NCBI GenBank assembly: GCA_030544185.1
Contig: JAUNRO010000015.1
Coordinates: 1-13,731, forward strand
Length of the DNA stretch: 13,731 nt
Direction of reading: 5' to 3'
Source: Propionibacteriaceae bacterium
GTDB taxonomy: Bacteria > Actinomycetota > Actinomycetes > Propionibacteriales > Propionibacteriaceae
The position numbers were made by a program, and so were the translations under genes. Shown piece by piece: positions 1 to 13,731 of the stretch (its first letter is position 1; every line of letters starts with the position of its first letter). Under the pieces are notes generated by a model. That model did not search any database. It saw only the letters and a program-made list of their open reading frames with translations, and had not been told where the DNA came from.

Positions 1-1
1 C

Positions 2-1210
2 GGGTGCAATCAACGGGCGCGGGCGCTGGATGCGTTCCTCACCGACGTCTATACCGGGCAGCAGATCATCCGCGATGGGGTCGTCGGCGAGTGGGTGGTC
101 GACAACGCACCGGGCTACGTGAGCTCGGGTGTCCTCGCCCGCGGCGTCCGCGCCCACATCGCCGGTTTCGACATCGTCACCGCCGGTGACGGGCGGTGGC
201 TGGTGCTGGAGGACAATCTCAAGATCCCCTCGGGGATGGCGTACGCCCTGTGGAACCGCCAGCTCGTGACCCGCTTCGCCCCCGAGTTCGTCCCGCCGGC
301 GCCACTGGTCGGCCACGACGCCATCGCTTCGACGCTGCTGGAAACACTGGTCCGGGCGGCGCCGCCCCGGGCGGGAGACACCCCGCACGTGGTGATGATG
401 TCGTCGGGAACGGACAACTCGGCGTACTCCGAGCATGTCGAACTCGCCACCCGCATGGGCGTGCCCCTGGTCTTCCCCGAGCACCTGATGGCGGGCGACG
501 GCCACCGGCTCGTCCGCCGCACCGGGGTCACCGCCACGGCACCGGTCGAGGTGATCTATTCCCGCGTGGACGAGGACGAGCTCGTCGAGTGCGTCGGCGC
601 CGACGGTGAGATCCTGCGCGATGCCGTCCATGCGGCGCTGCACCGGGGCACCCTCACGATCGCCAACGCGTTCGGCAATGGGGTCGGTGATGACAAAGCG
701 ATCTATGCTCTGGTACCACAGATGATCGACTACTACCTCGGTGAGAAACCGATCCTCGACAACGTGCCCACCTATCTCTGCGCAGAACGCGACGAGCTCG
801 ACCACGTTCTGGAGCACCTGGGTGAGCTCGTCACCAAACCCATCGACGGTTTCGGTGGGCGCGGGGTCGTGATCGGGCCCGATGCCACTGAAGCGCTGCT
901 CGAGGAGCGGCGGACCGAACTGCTGGAGTGCCCCGCGCGCTACATCGCGCAGGAGACGGTGAACCTCTCCACGGTGCCCTCGTTCGACGGCCAGGCCCTG
1001 CAGCCCCGGCACGTCGACCTGCGCGTGTTCACCCATGTGCGGGCGAACGGCGCCGGGACCGAAGCCGTCACCCTGCCCGCGGCCCTGACCCGGGTCGCCG
1101 CGGCCGGCAGCCGGATCGTCAACTCCTCCGCAGGCGGGGGCAGCAAGGACACCTGGATTCTGAGTCCCGCAGGGCGGGCGTCCGGCGCCGAGGCCGACGA
1201 AGGGAACTGA
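2..1210 (+). CDS. Circularly permuted ATP-grasp ligase (COG2308 type), 5' partial
   Basis: The frame is open from the left edge, so this is the C-terminal ~402 residues of a protein that usually has about 480; roughly 80-100 residues lie outside. A GTG at 95 is not the start, because the codons before it already encode family-like sequence (RALDAFLTDVY). Visible family signatures, numbered from the edge, are a GNGVGDDKAIYALVP stretch in the middle, the lysine-bearing VTKPIDGFGGRG segment (Lys near 279), PRHVDLRVF, and the C-terminal SSAGGGSKDTW motif. Proteins of this family are predicted ATP-dependent carboxylate-amine ligases and often sit beside alpha-E and transglutaminase genes; here the partner is an amidotransferase instead. 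The stop lies 4 nt before the next ATG, so the two genes are probably co-translated. No signal peptide is visible, but the N-terminus is missing. The family assignment is firm; the substrate is unknown. Confidence 0.88.
   Translation, partial: GCNQRARALDAFLTDVYTGQQIIRDGVVGEWVVDNAPGYVSSGVLARGVRAHIAGFDIVTAGDGRWLVLEDNLKIPSGMAYALWNRQLVTRFAPEFVPPAPLVGHDAIASTLLETLVRAAPPRAGDTPHVVMMSSGTDNSAYSEHVELATRMGVPLVFPEHLMAGDGHRLVRRTGVTATAPVEVIYSRVDEDELVECVGADGEILRDAVHAALHRGTLTIANAFGNGVGDDKAIYALVPQMIDYYLGEKPILDNVPTYLCAERDELDHVLEHLGELVTKPIDGFGGRGVVIGPDATEALLEERRTELLECPARYIAQETVNLSTVPSFDGQALQPRHVDLRVFTHVRANGAGTEAVTLPAALTRVAAAGSRIVNSSAGGGSKDTWILSPAGRASGAEADEGN
1199..1205 (+). promoter_or_regulatory. Ribosome binding site of the amidotransferase gene
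   Basis: GAAGGGA lies inside the last codons of the ATP-grasp gene, 9 nt before the ATG at 1215. It supports that start and indicates translation coupled to the upstream gene. Confidence 0.7.
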
Positions 1211-1214
1211 CTAC

Positions 1215-2996
1215 ATGTGTGGGTTGTGCGGCGAGATCCGTTTCGACGGCGAGCCGGTGGACCTGAGCGCGGTGCGCGCGATGACCGATGCGATGGCGCC
1301 CCGAGGACCGGATGGGTCGGGCGTCCACGCCCGCAGCCACTTCGGTCTCGGCCATCGCCGGCTCTCCATCATCGACCTCTCGGCGCGCGGCGCGCAGCCG
1401 ATGGTCGACAGCCAGCTGGGCCTGTCCTGGGTGTTCAACGGCTGCATCTACAACCATCAAGACATCCGTGACCAGCTCGAGAAGGCGGGCTATCGCTTCT
1501 TCTCCGAGGCCGATTCCGAGGTCGTCGGCAAGGCCTACCACTACTGGGGTCTCGACTTCGTCGATCACCTGCGCGGCATGTTCGCCATCGCGATCGCCGA
1601 GACCGACACCGGCCGGGTCGTGCTCGCCCGCGACCGGTTCGGGATCAAGCCGCTCTATCTGTCCGAAGGCCCCGGCCGCTTGCGGTTCGCCTCGAGCGTC
1701 CAGGCCCTGCTGGCGGCGGGCGACGTCGACACGAGCCTGGACCGCGTCGCGCTGCACCACTACTTCACGTTCCACGCCGTCGTGCCCGCGCCACGCACGG
1801 TGTTCAACGGCATCCGCAAGCTCCCACCGGCGACCGTGCGGCGCTATGAGCCCAACGGCGCGGTGACCGAGCGCCGCTACTGGAATCCGCCCTATGCCAG
1901 GGATCCCGAGAAGGATGGCTGGTCGGCCCAGGAGTGGCAGGAGGCCCTGCTGGACTCGTTCCGCGAGGCGGTGAAGCTCCGGATGGTCTCCGACGTGCCC
2001 GTCGGTGTGCTGCTCTCGGGCGGTTTCGACTCGAGCCTCGTGGTGGCACTGCTGGCCGCGAGCGGTCAGCACGGGCTCAAGACGTTCAGCATCGGCTTCG
2101 ACGCGGCCTCGGGCGAGTCGGGCGATGAGTATGCCTATTCCGATCTCGTCGCCGAGACGTTCGCGACCGATCACCACAAGATCCACATCGACACCTCCCG
2201 GCTCTATCCGGCCGTGCTGCCGTCGATCCGGGCGATGAGCGAGCCCATGGTCAGCCACGACTGTGTGGCGTTCTATCTGCTGTCGGAGGAGGTGTCGAAG
2301 CACGTCAAGGTCGTCCAGTCCGGACAGGGCGCCGACGAGGTCCTCGCCGGCTATGGCTGGTATCCACCGCTGGAGGATGTCCCGCTGGCCGATGCCACCC
2401 AGGCATATTCCAAGGTCTTCTTCGACCGCGATCACGACCGGGTCAACTCGCTGCTGGAGCAGCAGTTCGGGCTTGCCTACGATCCGTCCTGGGCGTACGC
2501 CCGGGAGCACCTGTCCGCCGCCGGTGCGGAGACCTCCGTTGACGCGGCGCTGCGATTGGACTCCCAGACCATGCTCGTCGAGGACCCGGTGAAGCGGGTC
2601 GACAACATGACGATGGCCTGGGGGCTCGAGGCCCGCGTCCCGTTCATCGACCACAAGTTCGCCGAGCTTGCCGCGCTCTGCCCGCCCGAGCTGAAGCTCT
2701 CCGGCGGTGGCAAGGGGGTGCTCAAGGACGCCTCCCGCGGGGTGCTGCCTGATGCGATCCTCGACCGCACCAAGGGCCACTTCCCGGTCCCCGGGATCCG
2801 CCATCTGGAAGGGGAACTGCTCGATCTGGTGCATGATGCGCTCGACGGCCAGGTCGCGCGCAACCGCGGGCTCTATCGCCGCGAGGCGCTGGAGACGTTG
2901 TATGCCGACCCCAACCGCTATCGCACCCCCATGGACGCCAACACCCTGTGGCAGGTGGCCACCCTGGAGCTGTGGCTGCAGGAGTTGGGCCGCTGA
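1215..2996 (+). CDS. asnO: Asparagine-synthase-like glutamine amidotransferase, NAGGN type
   Basis: 593 residues. It is a class II glutamine amidotransferase domain followed by an asparagine-synthase ATP-pyrophosphatase domain. After removal of Met1 the nucleophile is Cys2 (MCGLCGE). The glutaminase pocket shows RGPDG (30-34), GHRRLSIIDLS (46-56), FNGCIYN (74-80) and Asp100. The PP-loop is LLSGGFDSS (266-274), and GQGADEVLAGY (370-380) follows. FNGCIYN instead of the usual FNGEIYN, plus the EPMVSHDCVAFYLL block, resemble the amidotransferases of the NAGGN osmolyte system rather than housekeeping AsnB. Family knowledge: these enzymes take ammonia from glutamine to amidate a dipeptide carboxylate in the cytosol. 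The usual partner, a GNAT/ATP-grasp synthetase (Ngg), is not in view; the neighbour is a circularly permuted ATP-grasp protein. Subfamily is likely; plain asparagine synthetase is the alternative. Confidence 0.85.
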   Translation: MCGLCGEIRFDGEPVDLSAVRAMTDAMAPRGPDGSGVHARSHFGLGHRRLSIIDLSARGAQPMVDSQLGLSWVFNGCIYNHQDIRDQLEKAGYRFFSEADSEVVGKAYHYWGLDFVDHLRGMFAIAIAETDTGRVVLARDRFGIKPLYLSEGPGRLRFASSVQALLAAGDVDTSLDRVALHHYFTFHAVVPAPRTVFNGIRKLPPATVRRYEPNGAVTERRYWNPPYARDPEKDGWSAQEWQEALLDSFREAVKLRMVSDVPVGVLLSGGFDSSLVVALLAASGQHGLKTFSIGFDAASGESGDEYAYSDLVAETFATDHHKIHIDTSRLYPAVLPSIRAMSEPMVSHDCVAFYLLSEEVSKHVKVVQSGQGADEVLAGYGWYPPLEDVPLADATQAYSKVFFDRDHDRVNSLLEQQFGLAYDPSWAYAREHLSAAGAETSVDAALRLDSQTMLVEDPVKRVDNMTMAWGLEARVPFIDHKFAELAALCPPELKLSGGGKGVLKDASRGVLPDAILDRTKGHFPVPGIRHLEGELLDLVHDALDGQVARNRGLYRREALETLYADPNRYRTPMDANTLWQVATLELWLQELGR

Positions 2997-3025
2997 CGAT
3001 TCCCCGCCCGCCGGCGAACGCTGCG

Positions 3026-3082
3026 CCCCGATCGCCGCCGTCCGCCGCACCCCGACCCAGGCCGATCGTCCCCGATCGCCGC
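3026..3082 (+). repeat. 13-bp direct repeat in the gap before the peptidase gene
   Basis: The 103-nt gap between the amidotransferase stop and the peptidase start holds CCCCGATCGCCGC twice, at 3026-3038 and 3070-3082, 44 bp apart start to start. The pair is exact but the motif is GC-rich, so it could be chance. No clear promoter or hairpin was seen in the gap. Confidence 0.35.
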
Positions 3083-3086
3083 GACC

Positions 3087-3093
3087 AAAGGAG
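3087..3093 (+). promoter_or_regulatory. Ribosome binding site that fixes the GTG start of the S9 peptidase
   Basis: AAAGGAG sits 6 nt before a GTG at 3100. The reading frame stays open far upstream, into the amidotransferase gene, but the protein only becomes S9-like from this GTG. Confidence 0.8.
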
Positions 3094-3099
3094 TTCCTC

Positions 3100-5004
3100 G
3101 TGGACCTGTTCGGACGCCCGACCTTCGGGCCGTCGGTCTCCCCGGACGGCAGCTCCTTCGCCCATCTCGTCGAGGTCGACGGCTATCCGCGGGCGGTGCA
3201 GCGCTATCTCACCGACGGGCGGGTCAGCCAGTCCCGATGGGTGTCGCTGCCCGTGCTGGGCCCGATCACGAAATTGCGCTACTCGCCGGACAGCCGCTGG
3301 CTCGCCTGCCAGGTCAAACCCGAGGGCAGAGAGCGCAACCAGGTCTGGGTCGTCACCAATGACCCCAACGACCCGCGCTGCTGGCGGGTGAACGAGGCGG
3401 ACGACATCAACGCCGAGCTCGTCGGGTGGGACGGTGAGCGCATCGCGATCACGGTCGAGGACGACGATTGCATCGGGGAATCCCGCCTGGTCCATCCCGC
3501 CACGCACGAGGTTGAGATCGTGGATCGGCGCCGCGGTGGCCGGTTCATCGACTCCTGGCTCGGCAGTCACGTCATCCGCGAGGGTCCGCGCTGTGACCGG
3601 CACCTCGTCTTCCTGCGCAACGGGCGCGAGTTCCGGCTGCTGCCGGCGGATCCGGGCTCGACCACCGATCCGGGCCAGATCCTCGACGACAAGAAGCCGC
3701 TTCGGTTCTTCTATCGCGATGCGTACGCCGACCTCTATTATCCGGCGCCGCTCGTCGAGCCGGATGACCCGCTCGGTGGCTATGTCCGCGTGGTCGCGCG
3801 GACCGACCACGACGCCGACCATGCGCACCTCATCCTGATGACCATCACCCGCGGTGGGGTGTCGCGCCGGGTGCTGGCCACGCGCGACGGGGTCGACCTC
3901 GACAGCTTCGAGGTGAGCGAGGACGGATCGATCGTCGCCCTGCTGTGGAATGTCGACGGGGGCCATTCCGAGCTCCAGCTGATGGCGCTGGCCGACGGTT
4001 CGCTGCTCGATCCGGTCCCGCTGAGCGGTCAGGTGGGCTCCGAACTGAGCCTGTCCGCCGACGGCAGCCTGCTGGCGGTCACGGTCCAGGGCCCGGGGAT
4101 GGCGCGCTCGGTCGAGCTCTATGACACCCGGGCCCAGGAGTGGATCGAGATCGAACGGCCGCAGCGGGTCAGGCACTCGGTGGAGCCGACGTTCGAGACG
4201 ATCACCGCGCGGGACGGGCTGCGGCTGAACGGGTGGCTCTATCGCGCGGAGGAGCCGGAAGGGTCGGGTGCAGCCGAGGGTCCCGGCCCGATGGCCGTGT
4301 GGTTCCACGGCGGGCCGGAGGGGCAGGCGCGCCCGGAATACTCCTATGTGTTCCCGACGCTCCTGGCCGCCGGGGTCAGCGTGTTCGCGGCGAACGTCCG
4401 CGGATCCTCCGGTTTCGGCCGCGACTATGTCCATGCCGACGATCGCCATCGGCGCTGGGCGGGGATCACCGACGGGATCGACATCGCCCAGGCGCTGATC
4501 GATTCCGGCCTGGCCGATCCGGCCCGGATCGCCGCGACCGGGCGCAGCTACGGCGGCTACCTCACCAACGCCCTGATCGCCTTCCATCCCGGCACCTTCA
4601 CGACCGCGGTCGCGATCTGCGGGATGAGCGACCTGACGACGTTCTATGCCAACACCGAGCCGTGGATCGGGGCGGCCGCGGTGTCGAAATACGGGCATCC
4701 GGTGGCCGATGCGCAGCTCCTCGCCGACCTGTCGCCGCTGCGCAAGGCAGAGGCGATCGACGTGCCGCTGCTGACCATTCACGGCGCGAGCGATACCAAC
4801 GTGCCGGTGTCGGAGTCGGACCAGATCGTCGCCGCGCTCCGCGCGCAGGGCAAGCGCGCCGAGTGTGTCGTCATCGACGGGGAGGGCCACGAGTTCACCC
4901 AGCCCGACAACCGGCAATGGCTCGCCGACCTCGTCCGCGACTGGCTGTTGGAGAGCTGGGGAATGGGCGCCCCAGCTGACCCACGGCGGCCGGTCACCGG
5001 ATAG
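3100..5004 (+). CDS. S9 family (prolyl oligopeptidase/acylaminoacyl-type) serine peptidase
   Basis: 634 residues from a GTG start chosen by its AAAGGAG site. Residues 1 to about 385 form a beta-propeller-like region with repeated SPDG/SPDS, SEDG and SADG turns, starting at VSPDG. About residue 390 to the end is an alpha/beta-hydrolase. The oxyanion-side motif is WFHGGPEGQ (His403-Pro406), followed by NVRGSSGFG. The nucleophile elbow is GRSYGGY with Ser483; the other triad members are Asp565 (HGASDTNVP) and His597 (GEGHEF). All catalytic residues are present and there is no signal peptide, so an active cytosolic peptidase acting on short or blocked peptides is expected. It is the third gene of the apparent operon, 103 nt after the amidotransferase. 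NAGGN loci usually carry a metallopeptidase; this enzyme may fill the same turnover role, which is inference. Substrate unknown. Confidence 0.9.
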   Translation: MDLFGRPTFGPSVSPDGSSFAHLVEVDGYPRAVQRYLTDGRVSQSRWVSLPVLGPITKLRYSPDSRWLACQVKPEGRERNQVWVVTNDPNDPRCWRVNEADDINAELVGWDGERIAITVEDDDCIGESRLVHPATHEVEIVDRRRGGRFIDSWLGSHVIREGPRCDRHLVFLRNGREFRLLPADPGSTTDPGQILDDKKPLRFFYRDAYADLYYPAPLVEPDDPLGGYVRVVARTDHDADHAHLILMTITRGGVSRRVLATRDGVDLDSFEVSEDGSIVALLWNVDGGHSELQLMALADGSLLDPVPLSGQVGSELSLSADGSLLAVTVQGPGMARSVELYDTRAQEWIEIERPQRVRHSVEPTFETITARDGLRLNGWLYRAEEPEGSGAAEGPGPMAVWFHGGPEGQARPEYSYVFPTLLAAGVSVFAANVRGSSGFGRDYVHADDRHRRWAGITDGIDIAQALIDSGLADPARIAATGRSYGGYLTNALIAFHPGTFTTAVAICGMSDLTTFYANTEPWIGAAAVSKYGHPVADAQLLADLSPLRKAEAIDVPLLTIHGASDTNVPVSESDQIVAALRAQGKRAECVVIDGEGHEFTQPDNRQWLADLVRDWLLESWGMGAPADPRRPVTG

Positions 5005-5008
5005 GGAA

Positions 5009-5037
5009 GAGGCCGGACGGGATCACCGTCCGGCCTC
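5009..5037 (+). terminator. GC-rich hairpin between convergent genes
   Basis: A perfect 12-bp stem (GAGGCCGGACGG at 5009-5020, its complement at 5026-5037) with a 5-nt loop begins 5 nt after the peptidase stop. There is no T-run, which is common for actinobacterial hairpins. As a perfect palindrome 33 nt from the end of the convergent phosphoesterase gene, it could serve both directions. Confidence 0.75.
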
Positions 5038-5069
5038 GATGGGCCCGCGATTCACGGGCGGTCAAGGGC

Positions 5070-7262
5070 TCAGCGCTGAGACGCCCCCGCTGGTGTCGGC
5101 AGCGGCTTCGGCTGTTCCGGGCGGCCGGCGCCCTGGGCATGTCCCGGCACCCCGGTGCTCCCGGCATGTGGCGGGCGCCCGGTGGTGTGGCTGTGCGCGG
5201 GGCGCCCGACGCCGCGTCCTGGGGTGGGTGCCTTGACGACCGGCTGGACGAACGGGTTGGGGATCGTCACCGAGCGCAGCTCCGCGTTGATGGTGTTGTC
5301 GAACCCCGTCGTCGCCACGGGGCCGAAATCCCGTGCTGTCACGACCATCCGGTCGCTATAGAGGTCCACGGTCAGCCCCCGGTTGATATCGCGAGTGACG
5401 ATCTCGCTGATGCCCGAGGTGTTCTCCCCGCGGGCATCCCACTCGACGTGCATTGCGAGGGTATTGATCGCCCAGTTGCCATCCGGGTGTCCCTCGGCCG
5501 TCCGGCGCTGCACGGCCCAGTCGCCGAGCTCGGCCGGATAGTGCGTGTGGCCGTTCAGCATCACGGCGTTCGGGTGATCCGCCAGCATCTCGGTCAGCAG
5601 ATCGTTGTACTGGTAGGCATTGTGATACCACGGGATCCAAGACGCCGAGTGGGTGTCGCCCAGTGGGAAGTGGGAGATCACGAGCACCTGCTTCTGCTGT
5701 GCCGACCAATGGTCGAGGCGCTGGTCGAGCCAGGCGACCTGCTCGGCCGACATCGGCACCTCGGGCTGCCGGGCGTACTCCTGGCCGATCACCAGCACCG
5801 GCAGCTCGCCGCCGGCACCGCTCAGCACATATTCGCCGTAGACCTGGTCGCGCTCGGCGAACTGCAAGAAGCGATCGCGCAGGACCGGCCAGCCGCCCGC
5901 GGCGTACGACTCATGGTTGCCGATCGCTGCCGCCAGCGTGTCCGGCAGGATCTCCGCGCGCTCGGCCAGCACCCCATAGATCTCGTCCCACTGCCACTGC
6001 GCGCCGGTGTCGACGATGTCGCCGACCATGAGCAGGCCGGCCGCGTCGGGCCGGACGGCCTGCAGGTCGAGCAGGCCATGGGACAGATCCTGCGGGTGAC
6101 CCTGGATATCGGAGACGACCCAGGCCGAGGTGCGCCCGGCCGGCGGCGCGGGCAGGGCGGCGGAGACCGTCACCGAGTCGATGGCCCAATACCAGCTGTT
6201 CGCCTCGGCCTCGAACTTCCAGCGGAAGGTCGCGGTCTTCTTGCCGTTCGGCACCTCGATGCGATGGGTCTCATTCGAGTTGATCTTCGACCCGTCATAG
6301 TTGTCGGTCACGGTGGTGGAGTCGAAGCGGACGACCTCCCGCTCGGGACCCCCGTCGAAGGACACCGTCACGACCGCCGACTGCCCGGCCCAGCCCCGAT
6401 AGTGGGAGTCGAACGACAACTCGACGGCCTTGTGCTTGAACACGGGCACCGGCGCGGAGGTCAGCGTCGCGCCGTAGCGGTGCGGCGCGTTGTTGGCGTC
6501 GGCGAACTCGTCGGAGTCAACGACCGCGATGACGTCCTGGGCGCGGCCGAAGCGGAATCGCATCTGGTCCTCGGCATCGGTCCAGAACTCCCGGGTTGTG
6601 AACGACCAGCCGCGCCACTCAGTGACGCCCACGCCTTCCATCGACGCATCGAAGCCCGACGACCAGCCCGCAGGGGTCTGGTGGGTGAAACCGATGGTGC
6701 CCGGTGCGATGCCGGGATCGTCGGCCCGGGGCTGGAAATCGGCCGCCAGCGCATCGAAGCCTTCGCGAAAGAGCACGCCGTCCGTGCCGGTCGTGTCGAT
6801 CGGTGCGGGGGTGTGCGGAGCCGCGGGTGCGGGCGGCGGGGCTGGATTGCCGACGGTCAGCGGCAGCGGCCCGGCCAGCGACCGGTAGCCGTCGTTCTCC
6901 AGCAGATACACCACGTAGTCGCCCTCACCGACACCGGTAAAGGTGACCGTGCCTGCGGCCGCGGGGGCGTACTGCCAATAGCTCGAGGTCTGCACCCCGG
7001 GCACATCGTTGCTGCGATAGATGCCGACCCAGTTGAGCGGCATCGGGTTGTCGGCGGTATAGCTGACCCGCACGTCCTGGCCGGCGTCGACCCGGGCTGA
7101 CTCGAGGGTGAGCGTGCCGCCGGTGTTGGCGCGGGCGGGCAGCGCCGGGGCGAGAAGCATCGTCGCGAACACGACCAGGGCCACGAGGACCCGACCCAGC
7201 CGGGTCCGGTCCGGACAGATGATCGGGCGGTGCGGTCGCGCAGCCGGGTGGTCGGCAGTCAT
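5070..7262 (-). CDS. Secreted calcineurin-like metallophosphoesterase, multidomain
   Basis: 730 residues from the ATG at 7262, preferred over an upstream GTG at 7292 because GAAAGG lies 7 nt before it. Domains: a signal peptide with a basic region and a hydrophobic core (LVALVVFATMLLAPALPARA), then NTGG; a small beta-sandwich domain of the kind found before phosphoesterases (about 48-140, GTLTLESARVDAGQDV); a ~210-residue beta-rich region about 155-370, possibly carbohydrate-binding; a phosphoesterase domain about 375-660; and a Pro/Gly/His-rich tail. Metal motifs are SDIQGH (Asp385), GDIVDTG (414-420), GNHE (448-451), ISHFP (His531) and GHTH (571-574). The first motif has Gln where many relatives have His. 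No membrane helix or sortase signal ends the protein, so it is probably released or loosely wall-bound. Likely role: hydrolysis of extracellular phosphate esters; substrate unknown. It lies 152 nt downstream of the BTAD regulator gene on the same strand. Confidence 0.87.
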   Translation of the reverse strand: MTADHPAARPHRPIICPDRTRLGRVLVALVVFATMLLAPALPARANTGGTLTLESARVDAGQDVRVSYTADNPMPLNWVGIYRSNDVPGVQTSSYWQYAPAAAGTVTFTGVGEGDYVVYLLENDGYRSLAGPLPLTVGNPAPPPAPAAPHTPAPIDTTGTDGVLFREGFDALAADFQPRADDPGIAPGTIGFTHQTPAGWSSGFDASMEGVGVTEWRGWSFTTREFWTDAEDQMRFRFGRAQDVIAVVDSDEFADANNAPHRYGATLTSAPVPVFKHKAVELSFDSHYRGWAGQSAVVTVSFDGGPEREVVRFDSTTVTDNYDGSKINSNETHRIEVPNGKKTATFRWKFEAEANSWYWAIDSVTVSAALPAPPAGRTSAWVVSDIQGHPQDLSHGLLDLQAVRPDAAGLLMVGDIVDTGAQWQWDEIYGVLAERAEILPDTLAAAIGNHESYAAGGWPVLRDRFLQFAERDQVYGEYVLSGAGGELPVLVIGQEYARQPEVPMSAEQVAWLDQRLDHWSAQQKQVLVISHFPLGDTHSASWIPWYHNAYQYNDLLTEMLADHPNAVMLNGHTHYPAELGDWAVQRRTAEGHPDGNWAINTLAMHVEWDARGENTSGISEIVTRDINRGLTVDLYSDRMVVTARDFGPVATTGFDNTINAELRSVTIPNPFVQPVVKAPTPGRGVGRPAHSHTTGRPPHAGSTGVPGHAQGAGRPEQPKPLPTPAGASQR

Positions 7263-7269
7263 GGGCGTG

Positions 7270-7275
7270 CCTTTC
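7270..7275 (-). promoter_or_regulatory. Ribosome binding site of the phosphoesterase gene
   Basis: On the minus strand GAAAGG lies 7 nt before the ATG at 7262. The alternative GTG at 7292 has only pyrimidine-rich sequence before it, so this site decides the start. Confidence 0.65.
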
Positions 7276-7326
7276 GGAAAACGGGCGGACACGGGGGAGG
7301 TCCGGTGCCAGCCGATTCATCGCAGG

Positions 7327-7359
7327 TCGACGTGAGCCCTGTGTGGCGTGGATCTGAAC
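7327..7359 (-). promoter_or_regulatory. Possible PHO-box-like repeats upstream of the phosphoesterase
   Basis: On the minus strand GTTCAGATCCA (7359-7349) and GCTCACGTCGA (7337-7327) are spaced exactly 22 bp apart, that is, two 11-nt units with a degenerate unit between. Streptomyces PhoP binds 11-nt direct repeats starting with G-T/G-TCA. The match is good only in the first five bases, so this is tentative. The rest of the 152-nt gap (7263-7414) shows no convincing -10/-35 pair. Confidence 0.22.
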
Positions 7360-7414
7360 GCAGGGGTACGCCCCAGTGACCGCCCGGTCCGCTGCGCCGC
7401 CAACCTCGCGCGGA

Positions 7415-10099
7415 TCAGCTGACGACGGCTTCGAACGCCTTCGCACTGGGCTGCATCCCGAGCTCCCGCGCCAGGGGCAGATAGTGCTTCGCCAACTCGC
7501 GCGCCGTCGTTTCGTCCGCCACCTGCACCCGGTCGGCGGCCGACCTGATCTCCCAGACCGGCGTACCCGCCTCGGCACACTGTCGCTGCGCGGCTGCGAG
7601 GTCGGCACCCGCCTGATCGCGGTCGCCGGCCAATGCGGCGAGCATCCCCAGGATGCGATCGACGGGCCCCAGGCTGGTCGCGACCAGCCCGACCGCGATG
7701 AACTGACCGCGATAGGGTGCTGCCCGGCGCTGCAGGGCGCCGATCAGACCGGGCCACGGCGGCGCACCCGCCCACAAGGTCTCCGCCGCGAGCGCGAGCG
7801 TGAAGGGTGTGAAAGCGGTCGTCGGAGCGTCGAGCACGTCGTCGAGAGCCGTCCGCAGCGGATCGACGGCCGCGTCGGCCCGGCCCGCCTGGGCCAGCGC
7901 CAGCGCGATCGCGGCGGGCAGGAGCGTGTTGGCCGGCGCCACGACCCACAACCGCTCCATCGCCGGCCGGAAACCCTCCAGCGAGTCCCGCACCAGATGG
8001 GCCGCGAGCCGGTGGCCCGCCTCGGCCGCGATCGCATCCGGCAGGCCGGCGGTGACACCGCGCAGCAGCGCCGCCTCCGCCACCCGGTCGGCCTCCGCAA
8101 AGCGGCCCAGATCGCGGTGCAGGGACGCCTTCGACAGCTGCGCCAGCCAGAGCGAGCGCTCGCTGTTAGCGGCGTTGGCGGCATCCTTGAGCTGATCGAT
8201 GAGCGCGGGCACCTCGGTGAAGCGGCCGAGGATGAAGCAGTCGAAGATCACTTCCGACAGCGCCCAGCACTCCCAGCGGGGCAGGCCTTGGCTCTCGCGC
8301 AACAACTCCTCCGCGATCCCCTCCCGGCCGGCGACATCGGGGGAGGCACGGTTGAGCGCGTGATGGGTCAGCAGGGCATATCGCATCGACTCCCGGTCAC
8401 CCACCTGCGCGGCAGCATCCTGCAGCGACTGCACGGCCTCCCGGGTGGGCGGGACCCGGCCGGGCACCGAGAGTTCGAGCATGGCGGCCGCGCGGACCCG
8501 GATCGACAGCGGGGTGCTCGCGGGCCCGAGGCGCTCCTGTGCCTCGGCGAGCACTTCGGGCAGGTCGCTGCGCACCGTGACGCTGCGCGACACCCAGGTG
8601 CGGGTGAGGGCCAGGAGGGCGAAGCGTTCGGGGTCGTCGACGGTGCGCGCGAGGGCCAGCGCCGATCGCCATTCCCGTTCGGCGTGCTCGATCGCGCCAC
8701 GGGCGGTGAGCGCCTCGATCAGCAGCCGGGTCAGGTCGAGCCGGGTGGCATCGGGAACGTCGAGCGTGAGCGCCTCCGCGCAGAGTTCCTGCGCTGATTC
8801 GGCGAAGCCGGCCGACAGGCAGCTCGCCGCGGCCTGGGTCACGGTGCCCAATGCCTGGGCGCGCGTGGCCGGCTCGGCCGGTGCGGCGTTGAGACTCGCC
8901 AGGCGATGCCACGCGATTGCGGTGAGTGATCCCGCGACCGGATTGAGCACGCGCTCGAGGGCATCGGCAGCCCGGCGGTGCAGCATCGCACGCTCGATGG
9001 GTGAGCGCTGCTCCAGCCAGGCGGTGCCGAACTCGGGGCGATAGAGACTGACCGGCGCGGGCGGCGCAAGTGGCGCGACGAGACGACGCTGGATGAGGGC
9101 GGCCACGGTCTGTTCGGCCTCCGCCGCGGTGAGGTCGGCGGCTGCCGCGAGCACGCGCGGATCGGTGAACTCGCCCAGGATGGCGATGAGGCCGACGAGC
9201 AGGCGTTCGGCGGCGGTGGCGCCGGTCAGCCGGTCCGTGACCAGATGCCGGATCGGCGGGCTCATCTGGTGGTGAACCGGCGCGGGCCGCCGCGGTGCGC
9301 GGTCCAGGTCGGGCCCCCGGCCGCCGCCAAGGTGACGCAGCAGGGACTGATCCTGGCGCAGGATCGCTACTTCGAGACGGGTGGTGTCGGGGTCCGGGTC
9401 CACGCCGAACTCATCGCGGAGCAGGTCCCGCAGGCGCGCACCGGCGGCGAGCGCATCCGCCTGCCGGCCGGAGCGATAGAGCGCGAGCATGAGTTGGCGC
9501 GTCCGCCGTTCCCGCAGCGGGGCCGCCCCCACCAGGTCGGCCGCCATTTCGGCAGCCGCCTGCTCCCGGCCGAGGTCCAGCAGCACCTTGACCCGGTCCT
9601 CGCTGAGCCGGTCGCGGACTTCGATCAGGGCCTGGGCCAGCACCCGACTCTCGTGATCCTCCAGATCCACCAGTGGCGGGCCCCGGAAGAGCGCCAGTGC
9701 CTGCTTGAGCAACTGGTCGGCTGCCTCCGGATCGCCGAGGTCGATGCGGCCCACGAGCTCCTGCAACTCAGCGACATCGGTGGTGATGCCGGCACCCCGG
9801 AGTCGATAGCCGGCCGTTTCGTGCTGGAGCGGGGTCTGGCCGTCGAGGGCCACCGCAGCGCGAATCTTCGACACGTGCACGCGCAGCGCCGAGGCTGCGG
9901 TGGCGGGTGGCTGGCCGTTCCAGACGCGGTCGATGAGCCGGTCGGTCGAGACGGCCTCGCCGAGGTGGGCGCCGAGCACACCCAGCACGGCCCGCTGCCG
10001 TTTGCCCAGCCGGATCTCGCGCTCGCCGCGCATCACGGTCGCCCGGCCCAGCAACAGGAGTCGGACCGCAGGGTCCTCGAATCCTGCATTCGCTGTCAC
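7415..10099 (-). CDS. BTAD (SARP/AfsR-like) transcriptional regulator without P-loop
   Basis: 894 residues from a GTG at 10099, chosen because the DNA-binding domain starts about ten residues later and codons further upstream look non-coding. Residues about 12-100 are an OmpR-type winged helix (RLGKRQRAVLGVL, STDRLIDRVW, ALRVHVSKIRAAV). About 107-254 are the bacterial transcriptional activation domain, ending in DEFGVDPDPDT. A linker leads to a winged-helix-like segment (about 286-345) like those that follow NTPase cores in STAND regulators. The remaining ~540 residues are Ala/Leu-rich helical repeats resembling TPRs. No Walker A or B motif is present, so the AfsR-type NTPase core seems to be missing. 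No SD precedes the GTG; a TANNNT hexamer 7 nt upstream suggests a leaderless mRNA. It sits between phnM and the phosphoesterase gene, so it may regulate phosphorus genes, but nothing in the sequence proves a target. Confidence 0.85.
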   Translation of the reverse strand: MTANAGFEDPAVRLLLLGRATVMRGEREIRLGKRQRAVLGVLGAHLGEAVSTDRLIDRVWNGQPPATAASALRVHVSKIRAAVALDGQTPLQHETAGYRLRGAGITTDVAELQELVGRIDLGDPEAADQLLKQALALFRGPPLVDLEDHESRVLAQALIEVRDRLSEDRVKVLLDLGREQAAAEMAADLVGAAPLRERRTRQLMLALYRSGRQADALAAGARLRDLLRDEFGVDPDPDTTRLEVAILRQDQSLLRHLGGGRGPDLDRAPRRPAPVHHQMSPPIRHLVTDRLTGATAAERLLVGLIAILGEFTDPRVLAAAADLTAAEAEQTVAALIQRRLVAPLAPPAPVSLYRPEFGTAWLEQRSPIERAMLHRRAADALERVLNPVAGSLTAIAWHRLASLNAAPAEPATRAQALGTVTQAAASCLSAGFAESAQELCAEALTLDVPDATRLDLTRLLIEALTARGAIEHAEREWRSALALARTVDDPERFALLALTRTWVSRSVTVRSDLPEVLAEAQERLGPASTPLSIRVRAAAMLELSVPGRVPPTREAVQSLQDAAAQVGDRESMRYALLTHHALNRASPDVAGREGIAEELLRESQGLPRWECWALSEVIFDCFILGRFTEVPALIDQLKDAANAANSERSLWLAQLSKASLHRDLGRFAEADRVAEAALLRGVTAGLPDAIAAEAGHRLAAHLVRDSLEGFRPAMERLWVVAPANTLLPAAIALALAQAGRADAAVDPLRTALDDVLDAPTTAFTPFTLALAAETLWAGAPPWPGLIGALQRRAAPYRGQFIAVGLVATSLGPVDRILGMLAALAGDRDQAGADLAAAQRQCAEAGTPVWEIRSAADRVQVADETTARELAKHYLPLARELGMQPSAKAFEAVVS

Positions 10100-10150
10100 G
10101 CAAAGGAGCTTAGTGCCGTCGTGGTCAGCTGTGGACAAGTCCTTTGCGTG
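10097..10150. repeat. 11-bp perfect inverted repeat around the regulator promoter
   Basis: CACGCAAAGGA at 10097-10107 is the exact reverse complement of TCCTTTGCGTG at 10140-10150. The arms are separated by 32 bp and start 43 bp apart, close to four helical turns. One arm includes the GTG start codon of the BTAD gene; the other lies just upstream of a weak -35-like TTGTCC. This is the layout of an operator for a dimer pair or loop; autoregulation is inference. Confidence 0.6.
10107..10112 (-). promoter_or_regulatory. Candidate -10 element for leaderless BTAD gene transcript
   Basis: TAAGCT on the minus strand fits the actinobacterial TANNNT form and ends 7 nt before the GTG at 10099, which would place the transcription start at or beside the start codon. 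There is no SD here: the bases before the GTG are CTCCTTTGC. TTGTCC upstream is about 20 bp away, too far for a good -35. Confidence 0.35.
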
Positions 10151-10201
10151 GCTTTTGCGCCCGAGGGCGAAGCTTGGAGGGCAGACCGTGTCGGACGTGG
10201 G

Positions 10202-10237
10202 CGGGTCGTTGCCAGGTCGGGGGGTGGCAACGGCCCG
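10202..10237 (-). terminator. Hairpin after phnM, probable end of the phn operon
   Basis: A 13-bp stem with one G-T pair (arms 10202-10214 and 10225-10237, core CGTTGCCA/TGGCAACG) and a 10-nt loop begins 22 nt after the phnM stop in the direction of transcription. No T-run follows. It separates the phn operon from the BTAD gene. The other intergenic sequence here (10100-10259) holds only the promoter and inverted repeat described separately. Confidence 0.65.
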
Positions 10238-10259
10238 TTCGCCAGTTCCGCGCCGGACG

Positions 10260-11468
10260 TCAGCTGGGGCGCAGCACCCGGGCGACCCGCAGCCAGGTGC
10301 CCCGGGAATCATCGACCAGCACGAGGTCGGCCCGCTGGCCCTCGGCGAGGGTGCCCCGGTCGGTCAGCCCACCGACCTGGGCGGCCCCTGTGGTCACCAG
10401 GCGAGCGGCGGCGGGCAGTCCGATCTCGGGGGCGAGCACCGAGACCGCGCCCAGCAGCGCCGGTGGCAGATAGTCGGAGGCGAGCGAGTCGACGAGGCCC
10501 CGGCGGGCCAGTTCAAGGGCCGAGACATTCCCGGCGTGGGAGCCGCCGCGCATCAGGTTCGGTGCGCCGGCGACGATCAGCAGCCCGCATTCGCGTGCCC
10601 GCTCCGCCGCGGCCACCGTGGTCGGGAACTCGGCGACAGCGGCGCCCCGCTCGACCAGGGCGTCAACGGCCTCGGGGGTATCGGGATCATGGCCCATGAG
10701 CCGGATGTGCCCGGCCCGCGCGAGCTCGCCGAGCCAGGCCAGGTTGGCCTCGCGGATCGGTGCGCTCTGCACACCCTCCGCGCGCATCTCCTCGACACGT
10801 TCCCAGGCCTCGTCCTCGGTCTTGTGGTCGACGCCGACGATATAGGCCACCAGATAGCTGGGATCGACATATTGCCCCTGACCAGGGGTGTGGTCCTCGT
10901 GGGAGACCAGCGGTGGGATGTGGCCGGGGCCGACGTGGTCCACTTCCTCGAGCCGTTCGCGCAGGGCCGCGGCCCCACCCTCGCTCAGCACGTCGAGCCG
11001 GTGCAGGATCCGGTGATCGACCGCGGGCGCCGGGTGCCGGTCGACCGCACGGCACAGCTCAAGCGCGGCGGCAGGCTCCCGGCGTACTCCCCGGGCATGT
11101 TTGTGCTGGAACCCCGCCCCGTGGAACATCGTGGTGACCCCGGAGCCCAGGAGCCGGCCCTCGAAGCTGGGGATCGCGAAATCCCAGGGCAAGGTGGCCG
11201 TCGGCCGCGGTGCCCGCTCCTTCTCCAGCGCATCGGAGTGCACGTCGATCAGGCCGGGCAGGACCAGCAGGCCGCCGCCGTCCAGATCGGCGCGGGAGCC
11301 GCCGGTCCCGATCTCGGCGATCCGGCCCTCGCGAACCGCGATCCAGGCGTCGTCGAGGATGCGGTCGGTGAGCACCGCGCGGACGCCGCCGAGGACGAAA
11401 TCGGCGGGCGTGGGGCCGGCGGGCCAGGCCTGTGCCCGGGCCGGGGCCAGGGCGTCGAGGGGGTTCAT
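10260..11468 (-). CDS. phnM: Alpha-D-ribose 1-methylphosphonate 5-triphosphate diphosphatase PhnM
   Basis: 402 residues, amidohydrolase superfamily. In the C-P lyase pathway PhnM removes pyrophosphate from the ribosyl-phosphonate triphosphate made by PhnGHIL, giving the 5-phosphate substrate of PhnJ. The metal site begins at LIDVHSDALEK (73-83). Further PhnM signatures are VSHEDHTPGQGQ (188-199), GHDPDTPE (259-266), GAPNLMRGGSHAGNVSA (301-317) and SDYLPP (331-336). From memory the third conserved block usually reads HTPGQRQ, so Gly in place of Arg is a possible variant to check. The protein has about 20 more N-terminal residues than the E. coli enzyme (~378 aa), but the start is well fixed: its ATG overlaps the phnL stop as ATGA, and GGAG lies 7 nt upstream. 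It is the last gene of the operon, followed by a hairpin. Confidence 0.93.
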   Translation of the reverse strand: MNPLDALAPARAQAWPAGPTPADFVLGGVRAVLTDRILDDAWIAVREGRIAEIGTGGSRADLDGGGLLVLPGLIDVHSDALEKERAPRPTATLPWDFAIPSFEGRLLGSGVTTMFHGAGFQHKHARGVRREPAAALELCRAVDRHPAPAVDHRILHRLDVLSEGGAAALRERLEEVDHVGPGHIPPLVSHEDHTPGQGQYVDPSYLVAYIVGVDHKTEDEAWERVEEMRAEGVQSAPIREANLAWLGELARAGHIRLMGHDPDTPEAVDALVERGAAVAEFPTTVAAAERARECGLLIVAGAPNLMRGGSHAGNVSALELARRGLVDSLASDYLPPALLGAVSVLAPEIGLPAAARLVTTGAAQVGGLTDRGTLAEGQRADLVLVDDSRGTWLRVARVLRPS

Positions 11469-12292
11469 GCGACTGCTCCGTCGGTCGGGGAAGGGCTCGG
11501 GCGGTCGTCGAGGGACGCCTCGGCGATCCCGTCGTCGGTGAGGTGGTCGATCAGTTCGGCGCGGTCGGCGATCACGGCATCGGGGGTGTCATCGGCCACG
11601 ACGTGGCCGCCGGCGATCACGATCACCCGGCTGGCGAGACGGCGGATGATCTTCATGTCGTGATAGACCGCGAGCACCGCCACCTCGAGCCGGCGGAGGT
11701 CCTCGATCAACAGCAGCGCCTTCTCGCGGTTGGCCGGATCGAGCGCGGAGACCGGCTCGTCGAGCAGCAGCAGCCGGGGCGGGCTGACCGTCCCGGCCGC
11801 GAGGTTGACGCGTTGGCGCTCACCGCCCGACAGCACCGCGCAGTCGACGTCCCACAGCGCCTCGTCGAGCCCCAGCCGCTGCAGTGCGCCCACGGACGCG
11901 GCCCTGGCCTGCGCACCCTCCAGACCGCGACGGCGCGCCGCCCGGTGCACCAGCTCGAAGGGCCCGACCCGCGGTGGGGCCTGCAGGAACTGTGACACAT
12001 AGCCGAACTCGCGCCCGCGCAGCCGGGCCATCGTCCGGTCGGGGAGAGTGGTGAGCTCCAGCGGCCCGCTGCCGTTGACGACGAGCCGCACCGAGCCAGA
12101 GTCCGGCAGATAGGTGCGATAGATGCAGCGCAGCAGGCTCGACTTGCCCGCCCCGGAGGCGCCGGCGACGGCCACGTGTTCGCCGGGATCAACGTGCAGG
12201 CTGACACCGTCGAGGCTGGTCACCGTCCGCCCGCCGATCGCGTGCAGGGTGAACGTCTTGACGAGGTCGTCGACGGTCAGAATCGGCGCCAT
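11465..12292 (-). CDS. phnL: C-P lyase ABC ATPase subunit PhnL
   Basis: 275 residues. It is a soluble ABC ATPase with Walker A GASGAGKSS (44-52, Lys50), Q-loop YVSQFLQAPPRV (98-109), signature LSGGERQRVNLA (154-165), Walker B LLLLDEP (174-180) and the switch His211 (VYHD). The Q-loop and signature forms are PhnL-like. PhnL is needed with PhnG, PhnH and PhnI for the nucleophilic transfer of phosphonate to ATP ribose, and it docks with PhnK on the core complex. A charged tail of about 25 residues after 250 lacks obvious family features. The start has a strong SD (GGGAGGTG) 7 nt upstream that overlaps the stop of the phnJ-phnK gene; the two genes are 6 nt apart. The stop overlaps the phnM ATG, so phnM is probably translationally coupled to it. 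Confidence 0.93.
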   Translation of the reverse strand: MAPILTVDDLVKTFTLHAIGGRTVTSLDGVSLHVDPGEHVAVAGASGAGKSSLLRCIYRTYLPDSGSVRLVVNGSGPLELTTLPDRTMARLRGREFGYVSQFLQAPPRVGPFELVHRAARRRGLEGAQARAASVGALQRLGLDEALWDVDCAVLSGGERQRVNLAAGTVSPPRLLLLDEPVSALDPANREKALLLIEDLRRLEVAVLAVYHDMKIIRRLASRVIVIAGGHVVADDTPDAVIADRAELIDHLTDDGIAEASLDDRPSPSPTDGAVA

Positions 12293-12298
12293 CCGGCG

Positions 12299-13731
12299 TC
12301 ACCTCCCGGCGGCTGCGACGAGCCGCTGTGTGTAGGGATGATGTGGGTCCGCGAACAACTGATCGGTGAGACCTTGTTCGATCACGCGCCCGTCCCGCAT
12401 GACGATCGCCCGATCGGTCAGCGCGGAGATCACCGCGAAGTCGTGGCTCACGACAGCGACGGCGAGCTCGCGCTCGGCGAGGAGTTCGCGCAGCAGATCG
12501 AGGACGCCGGCGGCGACGCTCGCGTCGAGTCCGGTGGTGGGCTCGTCGAGCAGCAGGACCTGGGGATCGCCGGCGAGTGCCTTCGCGATCTGGACGCGCT
12601 GGCGCATGCCGCCGGAGAACTGCCCGACGACATCGTCCATGCGGCTGAGCGGGACCTCGACCCGGTCGAGCAACTGGGCGGCGCGGCGGCGGATCCGGTG
12701 ATAGGAGCGCCAGCCGCCGGCGGTGAGCCGGTCGGCGATGTTGCCGCCGGCGGAGATCCGCAGGTCGAGTCCGGCCGCGGGATCCTGATGGACCACGGCC
12801 AGGGTGGAGATCCGCAGTGCTCGCCGCTGCGCGGCCGACAGGTCCAGGACGTTTGTCCGCCCCTCGTCCACCGCCGCGAGCAGAACCCGGCCCTCCCGGG
12901 TCGTCTCCTCCCCGATCAGGCAGCGCAGGACGGTCGACTTGCCTGAGCCGGATTCGCCGATGATGCCCAGTGCCTCACCCGGTGCGATGTCGAGACTCAC
13001 CTCGTCCACGGCCCGCACCCGCGTCGAACCGCGGCGCGCGGCGAACGTCTTGCCGAGGTGCTCCACCTTGACGGCCCATTCCTCGCCCGGGGCGGTGATC
13101 GCCCGGGCGGCGCCCAGCTCATCGGCCGGGCCCCCGCCGGGGGGCGCCGCCGCGGCGGCCCGCACCCGTTTGGTCGGATCCGGCAGCCACCGCAGGGGCG
13201 CGACGCGCCGGTGGTCGGCGGCATCCACATCGCCGGCGCGCACGCGGGCGCACCACTCGACGTCGGAGCACAGCCAGTTCCCGCTGCTCGTCTGCACCAG
13301 ATAGGTGTCGGCGGACCCGCACAGCACACAAGCCGAGCCCTCGGCGTACTCCACCTCGAACGGCACGTCATCGAACGTCACCGGGACCACCGAGGTGTGC
13401 GGCGGGACCGCATAGAGCTTCTTGTCGCGGCCGTGGGACAGCAGCGTGAGGTGATCGGCATCATCGAAGCGCGGGACGTCCCAGCGCGGGATCGGGCTCG
13501 GTGCCATCACATGCCGGTCGTGGACCAGCACCGGGTAGCCAGCCGCGGCATTGATCACCCCACCGGTGACGAGGTCCTCATAGAGCGCGACCCAGAGCCG
13601 CGCATAGTCGGCCTCGGCGTGCATCCGCCGGGTCTCGGTGACGTCCTTCTCGATCGGGCGCAACGGCTCGGAGACCGGAACCTGCAGGACGAGGGTCTGG
13701 TGGTCACGCAAACGGTCCTCGGGGACGCGGT
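12299..13731 (-). CDS. phnJ-phnK: PhnJ-PhnK fusion: C-P lyase radical-SAM subunit joined to ABC ATPase, 5' partial
   Basis: The frame is open to the right edge; a TTG at 13711 is internal, as codons before it match PhnJ (RVPED). Numbering from that TTG codon, residues 1-155 are the C-terminal part of PhnJ: FQVP-like LVLQVPVSEPLR, TETRRMHAEADYA, PSPIPRWD, GRDKKLYAVPP, then all four expected cysteines (Cys128, Cys131, Cys148, Cys154) that in E. coli bind the 4Fe-4S cluster or form the thiyl radical. Residues ~156-212 are an Ala/Pro/Gly-rich linker. Residues 213-470 are a full PhnK: Walker A GESGSGKST (252-260), VVHQDP, SAGGNIADRL, signature FSGGMRQR (365-372), Walker B LLLDEP (386-391), His423 and the PhnK-like end ADPHHPYTQRLV. 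PhnJ cleaves the C-P bond; PhnK docks on PhnJ. About 110 N-terminal PhnJ residues, including the radical glycine, lie outside. Confidence 0.92.
   Translation of the reverse strand, partial: RVPEDRLRDHQTLVLQVPVSEPLRPIEKDVTETRRMHAEADYARLWVALYEDLVTGGVINAAAGYPVLVHDRHVMAPSPIPRWDVPRFDDADHLTLLSHGRDKKLYAVPPHTSVVPVTFDDVPFEVEYAEGSACVLCGSADTYLVQTSSGNWLCSDVEWCARVRAGDVDAADHRRVAPLRWLPDPTKRVRAAAAAPPGGGPADELGAARAITAPGEEWAVKVEHLGKTFAARRGSTRVRAVDEVSLDIAPGEALGIIGESGSGKSTVLRCLIGEETTREGRVLLAAVDEGRTNVLDLSAAQRRALRISTLAVVHQDPAAGLDLRISAGGNIADRLTAGGWRSYHRIRRRAAQLLDRVEVPLSRMDDVVGQFSGGMRQRVQIAKALAGDPQVLLLDEPTTGLDASVAAGVLDLLRELLAERELAVAVVSHDFAVISALTDRAIVMRDGRVIEQGLTDQLFADPHHPYTQRLVAAAGR
12300..12307 (-). promoter_or_regulatory. 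Ribosome binding site of phnL
   Basis: GGGAGGTG on the minus strand lies 7 nt before the phnL ATG and overlaps the phnJ-phnK stop codon, so ribosomes ending on phnJ-phnK can reinitiate directly. Confidence 0.75.

Follow-up and report, generated by a model that had tools for sequence, protein, structure and literature searches.

In a 13,731-nucleotide stretch of DNA from a Propionibacteriaceae bacterium (GenBank assembly GCA_030544185.1, contig JAUNRO010000015.1, forward-strand positions 1 to 13,731), which was analyzed as a whole and is called the window here, the genes for PhnJ and PhnK of the carbon-phosphorus (C-P) lyase are joined into one. Comparison with related sequences indicates that this fusion is real and inherited and that it probably arose a single time, by the joining of two overlapping genes in an ancestral actinobacterium. 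With a probability of roughly 0.62 we favor the reading that PhnK of this inherited fusion docks at the site used in Escherichia coli and stays attached through a flexible tether, with two PhnK domains per core and no obligatory release of PhnK.

The fused gene is a single unbroken frame on the minus strand (12299–13729, 476 codons plus stop, no internal stop codon), in which a PhnJ part is followed by a complete PhnK-type ATPase, as a preliminary description of the window had noticed. Pfam places PF06007 (PhnJ) at residues 1–164 of the fusion, with 192 bits against a cut-off of 25 and covering profile positions 105–273, and ABC_tran at residues 242–399. The best NCBIfam match of the second half is PhnK TIGR02323 (214.6 bits, residues 222–473), under the equivalog cut-off of 302.85; by best match this half is a PhnK-type domain, and by the NCBI threshold it is no member of that family. 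The four cysteines (Cys 134, 137, 154 and 160) and the Walker A, signature, Walker B and H-switch motifs are all present, as first described. The parts of the gene, with ABC standing for ATP-binding cassette, are as follows.

12299–13729 (-): fusion of phnJ and phnK; truncated at its 5' end by the window edge, stop codon at 12299–12301
13250–13729 (-): part encoding PhnJ, starting near the equivalent of E. coli residue 109 and ending at the last cluster cysteine
13250–13330 (-): CxxC...C.....C motif, its four Cys aligned with E. coli PhnJ Cys241, 244, 266 and 272
13169–13249 (-): PhnJ C-terminal extension of 27 residues, ending LPDPTK; kept in the fused clade, not in the split sisters shown
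13085–13168 (-): variable linker of 28 residues (17–40 across 35 fused rows of our trees)
12302–13084 (-): PhnK-type ABC ATPase domain, with the ABC_tran and TIGR02323 matches
12932–12958 (-): Walker A, GESGSGKST
12596–12619 (-): ABC signature, FSGGMRQR
12539–12559 (-): Walker B, VLLLDEP, including the catalytic Glu
12443–12445 (-): H-switch His

PhnJ lacks its first ~108 residues, which fall outside the window, and the contig probably ends at this edge because the database copy of the protein, on a contig of 16,849 bases, also has 476 residues. Full-length relatives carry the PhnJ N-terminus in frame (the closest among the matches listed has 591 residues and is 90% identical), and the predicted size of ~65 kDa agrees with the 64.2 kDa calculated for one of them, P0002. 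Between the last cluster cysteine and the EEWAVKV start of PhnK there are 55 residues (58 to AVKV). The linker of ~57 residues noted at first is thus more complex: about half of it is a 27-residue PhnJ tail ending PDPTK, which is conserved in the clade with a nearly invariant PDP, and 28 residues are variable.

Relatives of the window protein carry the same fusion. All 120 best matches (of 6,640 at E ≤ 0.001) contained both Pfam domains, and 117 of these 120 were 589–635 residues long. A genome scan, from which 80 of 166 confirmed loci were kept, and family searches of whole genomes together yielded 124 PhnJ copies that differ in sequence (E. coli entered twice), 34 of them fused with PhnK, 85 with a separate adjoining PhnK and 5 without PhnK within the stretch available. 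The trees had 100 rows, 35 of them fused: the window was added, and the five PhnJ-only copies, the second E. coli locus and two-thirds of the Pseudomonadota copies were dropped. In the PhnJ, PhnK and joined trees the fused rows lay on one side of a single branch, with Shimodaira-Hasegawa-like approximate likelihood ratio test (SH-aLRT) support of 97, 99 and 99, respectively; these were quick trees, and the program warned of long branches among some split rows. Thus, rather than being always split at this point, the relatives include 35 fused rows, which make up a single clade explained by one change and lying within split actinobacterial rows. The split rows grouping with the clade came mainly from Acidimicrobiia and other actinobacterial metagenome-assembled genomes (MAGs), Spongiactinospora and four Streptomyces. 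Among the 16 split sister rows, 14 have a four-base overlap (ATGA or GTGA) between the stop of phnJ and the start of phnK, a plausible starting point for the fusion. An indel that would restore a separate stop and start was not seen in the linker, whose frame was open in all 35 fused rows examined as DNA, and none of these rows had reverted to split genes.

The fusion is the minority form in the phylum, because in an even sample with PhnJ in 15 of 396 genomes one was fused (the centre genome itself) and 12 were split, the remaining two having no PhnK in the stretch available. In the family samples, where loci repeating earlier ones were counted under their earlier class, PhnJ occurred in 12 of 197 genomes of the Microlunatus family (8 fused), in 16 of 249 of the Saccharopolyspora family (17 copies, 14 fused) and in 2 of 297 of the Streptomyces family (one fused, the other with two split copies and a fragment). 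Among 200 Pseudomonadota genomes, 27 had PhnJ above the cut-off; 28 of the 29 copies given loci were split and one had no PhnK nearby, and three further copies were open frames of 320–352 residues, too short to encode a fusion. Genomes G004 and G832 each contain both forms, one copy fused and one split. No sign of plasmid spread was seen among 200 matching plasmid records, all below 60% identity, the 15 listed matching in two pieces. Actinopolymorpha pittospori, which has a fused copy (L009), also contains a second, decayed phn stretch (L061, about 4527–5414) with 152 residues of the C-terminal part of PhnK and no PhnJ match.

The E. coli complex PhnGHIJKL (PDB 7z15–7z19, 4xb6; PMC9947105) resembles the fused system in gene order (G-H-I-J-K-L-M), in the PhnJ and PhnK folds, in the cluster cysteines and ATPase motifs and in most PhnJ-PhnK contacts. 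It differs in that PhnJ and PhnK are separate proteins, encoded by genes overlapping by four bases; the fused system has one chain, the 27-residue PhnJ tail and a variable linker, and PhnK Arg82 and Trp29 are replaced. The same article describes contacts of PhnJ Glu149, Asp226, Asp228, Asp229 and Tyr158 with PhnK Arg78, Arg82, Arg116 and Tyr118, and reports that growth on phosphonate was abolished by PhnJ E149A, PhnJ Y158A and PhnK R78A/R82A (PMC9947105).

These residues were scored in 216 fused proteins of 341 fetched, which were chosen by score limits and not by tree, so that at least one of them (P0242) passes the limits yet groups outside the clade. The four Fe4S4-site cysteines of PhnJ were found in 216/216, window included, as were PhnK Asp170, Glu171, Gln90 and His204. 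PhnJ Gly32, which we take to be the radical glycine, was Gly in 34/34 other fused rows, the position being outside the window in the window protein. With regard to the contacts, PhnJ Tyr158 and Asp229 and PhnK Arg78 were invariant (216/216), PhnJ 149 was Asp in 215 and Glu in 1, PhnK Arg116 was present in 215, PhnK 118 was Tyr (196) or Phe (20), and PhnJ Asp228 was present in 197. At least 215 of the 216 proteins therefore conserve the type of residue at the Fe-S cysteines, at the ATPase catalytic positions and at 6 of the 9 E. coli contacts, which suggests that the fused domains probably dock as in E. coli. As most contact residues are invariant, the tether would add retention rather than replace docking.

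Several observations weigh against such an E. coli-like arrangement. PhnJ Asp226 is mostly Thr, and PhnK Arg82, a contact mutated in E. coli, is Arg in 0/216 (the neighboring position 81 is Arg in 211). On the side facing PhnL, PhnK Trp29 is Ala in 215/216, and the C-terminal end of PhnK has low confidence (42–73) in a predicted model. PhnK 231–247, on that side too, is less acidic than in split rows, with a net charge of -1 in 28 of 35 fused rows vs -2 in E. coli. The Arg82 and Asp226 changes also occur in the 16 split sisters and hence predate the fusion. The nearest kin of the fused rows in the trees, the split C-P lyases of Streptomyces (L025–L028), Spongiactinospora (L029–L030) and Acidimicrobiia MAGs, share both replacements and differ from the fused system in having separate phnJ and phnK genes and no conserved PhnJ tail.

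In one split locus (L161), PhnJ 149 is Arg and PhnK 78 is Glu, vs the acidic-Arg pair in the other 99 tree rows; these swapped charges suggest a real salt bridge between the two positions, in a single case on a long branch. A conserved insertion of ~17 residues (GTGPEHGTAISP...) lies just past the first PhnK strand in Pseudonocardia/Streptomyces-type fusions (e.g. L012) and in split sisters (e.g. L025, L031), and P0191, P0207, P0248 and P0260 have a CxxC...CxxC zinc-ribbon-like insert at that place instead. Besides, 14 of 65 split PhnJ rows (L023, L024, L046, L047, L050, L052–L060) retain just the first of the four Fe-S cysteines. They belong to Bacteroidota, Verrucomicrobiota, Acidobacteriota and one Chloroflexota, and most adjoin phnG, H, I, K and L; three such genomes (G007, G008, G011) had no other PhnJ match, and no report of such cysteine loss was found in our literature search.

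According to the mechanism that we favor, each PhnK domain would dock on PhnJ at the insertion-domain site used in E. coli and be held by a flexible linker of some 20–40 residues. Since there are two PhnJ per E. coli core, a 1:1 tether would place two PhnK on each core, and every (GHI-JK)2 core would always carry both, the arrangement that is active in E. coli. The two PhnK domains would pair on ATP, recruit free PhnL and, on hydrolysis, pull PhnJ open. In E. coli, according to PMC9947105, the core is opened by PhnK movement and a lone bound PhnK is disordered and inactive. The tether would abolish this single-PhnK state and retain the motor at the core, and departure of PhnK from PhnJ would not be an obligatory step of its cycle. 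The fusion adds no new chemistry. The fixed 1:1 stoichiometry, tethered ATPase and free PhnL proposed in the preliminary description are consistent with the E. coli structures (PMC9947105) and with the conservation of most docking residues, and we keep them as a proposal with one correction: 1:1 would mean two PhnK domains per core, so that the inactive state with a single PhnK, observed in E. coli, would be excluded. A published model has the PhnK subunits pushed apart during core opening, and a clade unable to release PhnK from PhnJ agrees with it; the step itself and any fitness gain we infer. A further claim, to which we would give somewhat less than even odds, is that PhnK never has to leave PhnJ, with two permanent motors per core, ATPase control by PhnL recruitment alone and the single-PhnK state off pathway. 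In a bolder form, PhnK of one chain would dock on the other PhnJ, strapping the core halves together during opening.

A neutral origin fits the sequence data almost as well as the favored reading, though we consider it rather unlikely overall. Here the overlapping, co-translated genes would have been joined by a chance in-frame change that left stoichiometry and mechanism as they were, and the join would have persisted since the stop, ribosome site and start needed to separate the genes are unlikely to evolve again. The single origin in the trees agrees with this, as do the four-base overlap of most split sisters, a short step from fusion, the conservation of docking residues in fused and split forms alike, and the coexistence of both forms in Actinomycetota with the split one commoner (1 of 15 PhnJ genomes fused). 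However, the lack of any return to split genes in 35 fused rows and the conserved new PhnJ tail suggest some selection on the joined form, although these two points also fit one-way neutral change.

That a separate PhnK is still made from the fused gene, by internal initiation or by cutting of the linker, appears improbable. The variability of the linker and the Met found between PhnJ end and PhnK start in 61 of 216 fused proteins would favor it; however, the rows share no conserved internal start site, ATG occurring near the junction in 6 of 35 at no common place and a start codon preceded by a Shine-Dalgarno match of five or more bases in 3 of 35, an argument with a weak control, as only 16 of 33 phnL starts show such a match. 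Moreover, inspection of the 23 fused loci that have longer flanks revealed no stand-alone phnK, and in 22 of 24 fused genomes (74 best candidates per genome scored) the fused gene was the only PhnK match at E ≤ 1e-50.

Least probable, and virtually dismissed, is an assembly or sequencing error in the window: joined proteins with the PhnJ end in a shifted frame (P0121, P0122, P0126) or with PhnK's own Met (P0123, P0128, P0129) do exist, most known from one contig, but the window protein has all four Cys, the clade's PhnJ tail and no Met between its parts, and independently assembled genomes carry the same fusion, some in contigs of several megabases.

A second fused clade was considered and not accepted. 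When the E. coli PhnJ and PhnK sequences were concatenated as the query, many of the best 120 of 7,920 matches were joined proteins, and 43 of the 44 inspected had both E. coli-type domains; judged as a group and not one by one, several of them had a shifted PhnJ frame or PhnK's own Met start, and most were on one contig. P0179, P0207, P0242 and P0260 likewise have PhnJ and PhnK within one predicted protein and may be independent fusions or errors; split rows are the nearest kin of the first three, and the search with P0207 gave no close fused kin among the matches listed, the next best being 47–55% identical. Other joined proteins of ~633 residues (P0150–P0154, P0156–P0162), 98–100% identical to E. 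coli PhnJ, combine PF06007 with PF05861, which is presumably PhnI; one cluster has 385 members, and they may be a PhnI-PhnJ join or a repeated frameshift.

Downstream of the fusion, PhnL has its own gene, as originally stated, starting six bases past the fusion stop behind GGGAGGTGA and overlapping phnM by four bases.

12299–12307 (-): GGGAGGTGA, ribosome-binding-like site for phnL, overlapping the fusion stop; read directly from the sequence
11465–12292 (-): phnL, separate gene; best NCBIfam match TIGR02324, 205 bits, under the equivalog cut-off of 256.3
10260–11468 (-): phnM; TIGR02318 at 307 bits (below cut-off), NF011984 and NF011990 above theirs

The window phnL has the equivalents of E. 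coli PhnL Arg82 and Glu175. PhnL was assigned in the window by TIGR02324 and in relatives by position after the fusion, as iterated PhnC/PhnL ABC profiles drifted together. Of the C-P lyase operon set phnG-H-I-J-K-L-M, the window contains J-K, L and M. The positions of G, H and I are beyond its edge; of the 23 fused relatives whose flanks are longer, 21 have these genes, and L006 and L010 show only some of the set. Outside the phn operon, genes for a circularly permuted ATP-grasp protein, a glutamine amidotransferase/asparagine synthase and an S9 peptidase stand in a row at 2–5004 (+), and the stretch at 7415–10312 (-) contains a BTAD-type regulator gene.

The fused sequences are already public, under source-database names such as PhnJ, ATP-binding cassette protein or ABC oligopeptide transporter. 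No description of such a fusion was found in a literature search whose coverage excluded most subscription journals, and the words "fusion" and "fused" are absent from the main text of PMC9947105; the fusion thus appears to be a new variant of the known C-P lyase complex. The observation in the preliminary description is confirmed and its interpretation partly supported. All 24 fused genes tested scored 209–230 with TIGR02323, below the NCBI cut-off, and phnK can therefore look absent; one split PhnK (G004) was also below it, at 183 bits. In a review, the cluster of a Streptomyces rhizosphaericus strain is given as phnMLJIHFCED, with no phnK (PMC7866108), and this gap may reflect a fusion, the strain being outside our comparison. 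The fusion thereby reveals an annotation gap for phnK. It would also provide structural and turnover studies with a single-chain complex whose composition is fixed. For the biology of C-P lyase, the fused clade suggests that the motor need not leave the enzyme while working, which fits a cycle without PhnK dissociation.
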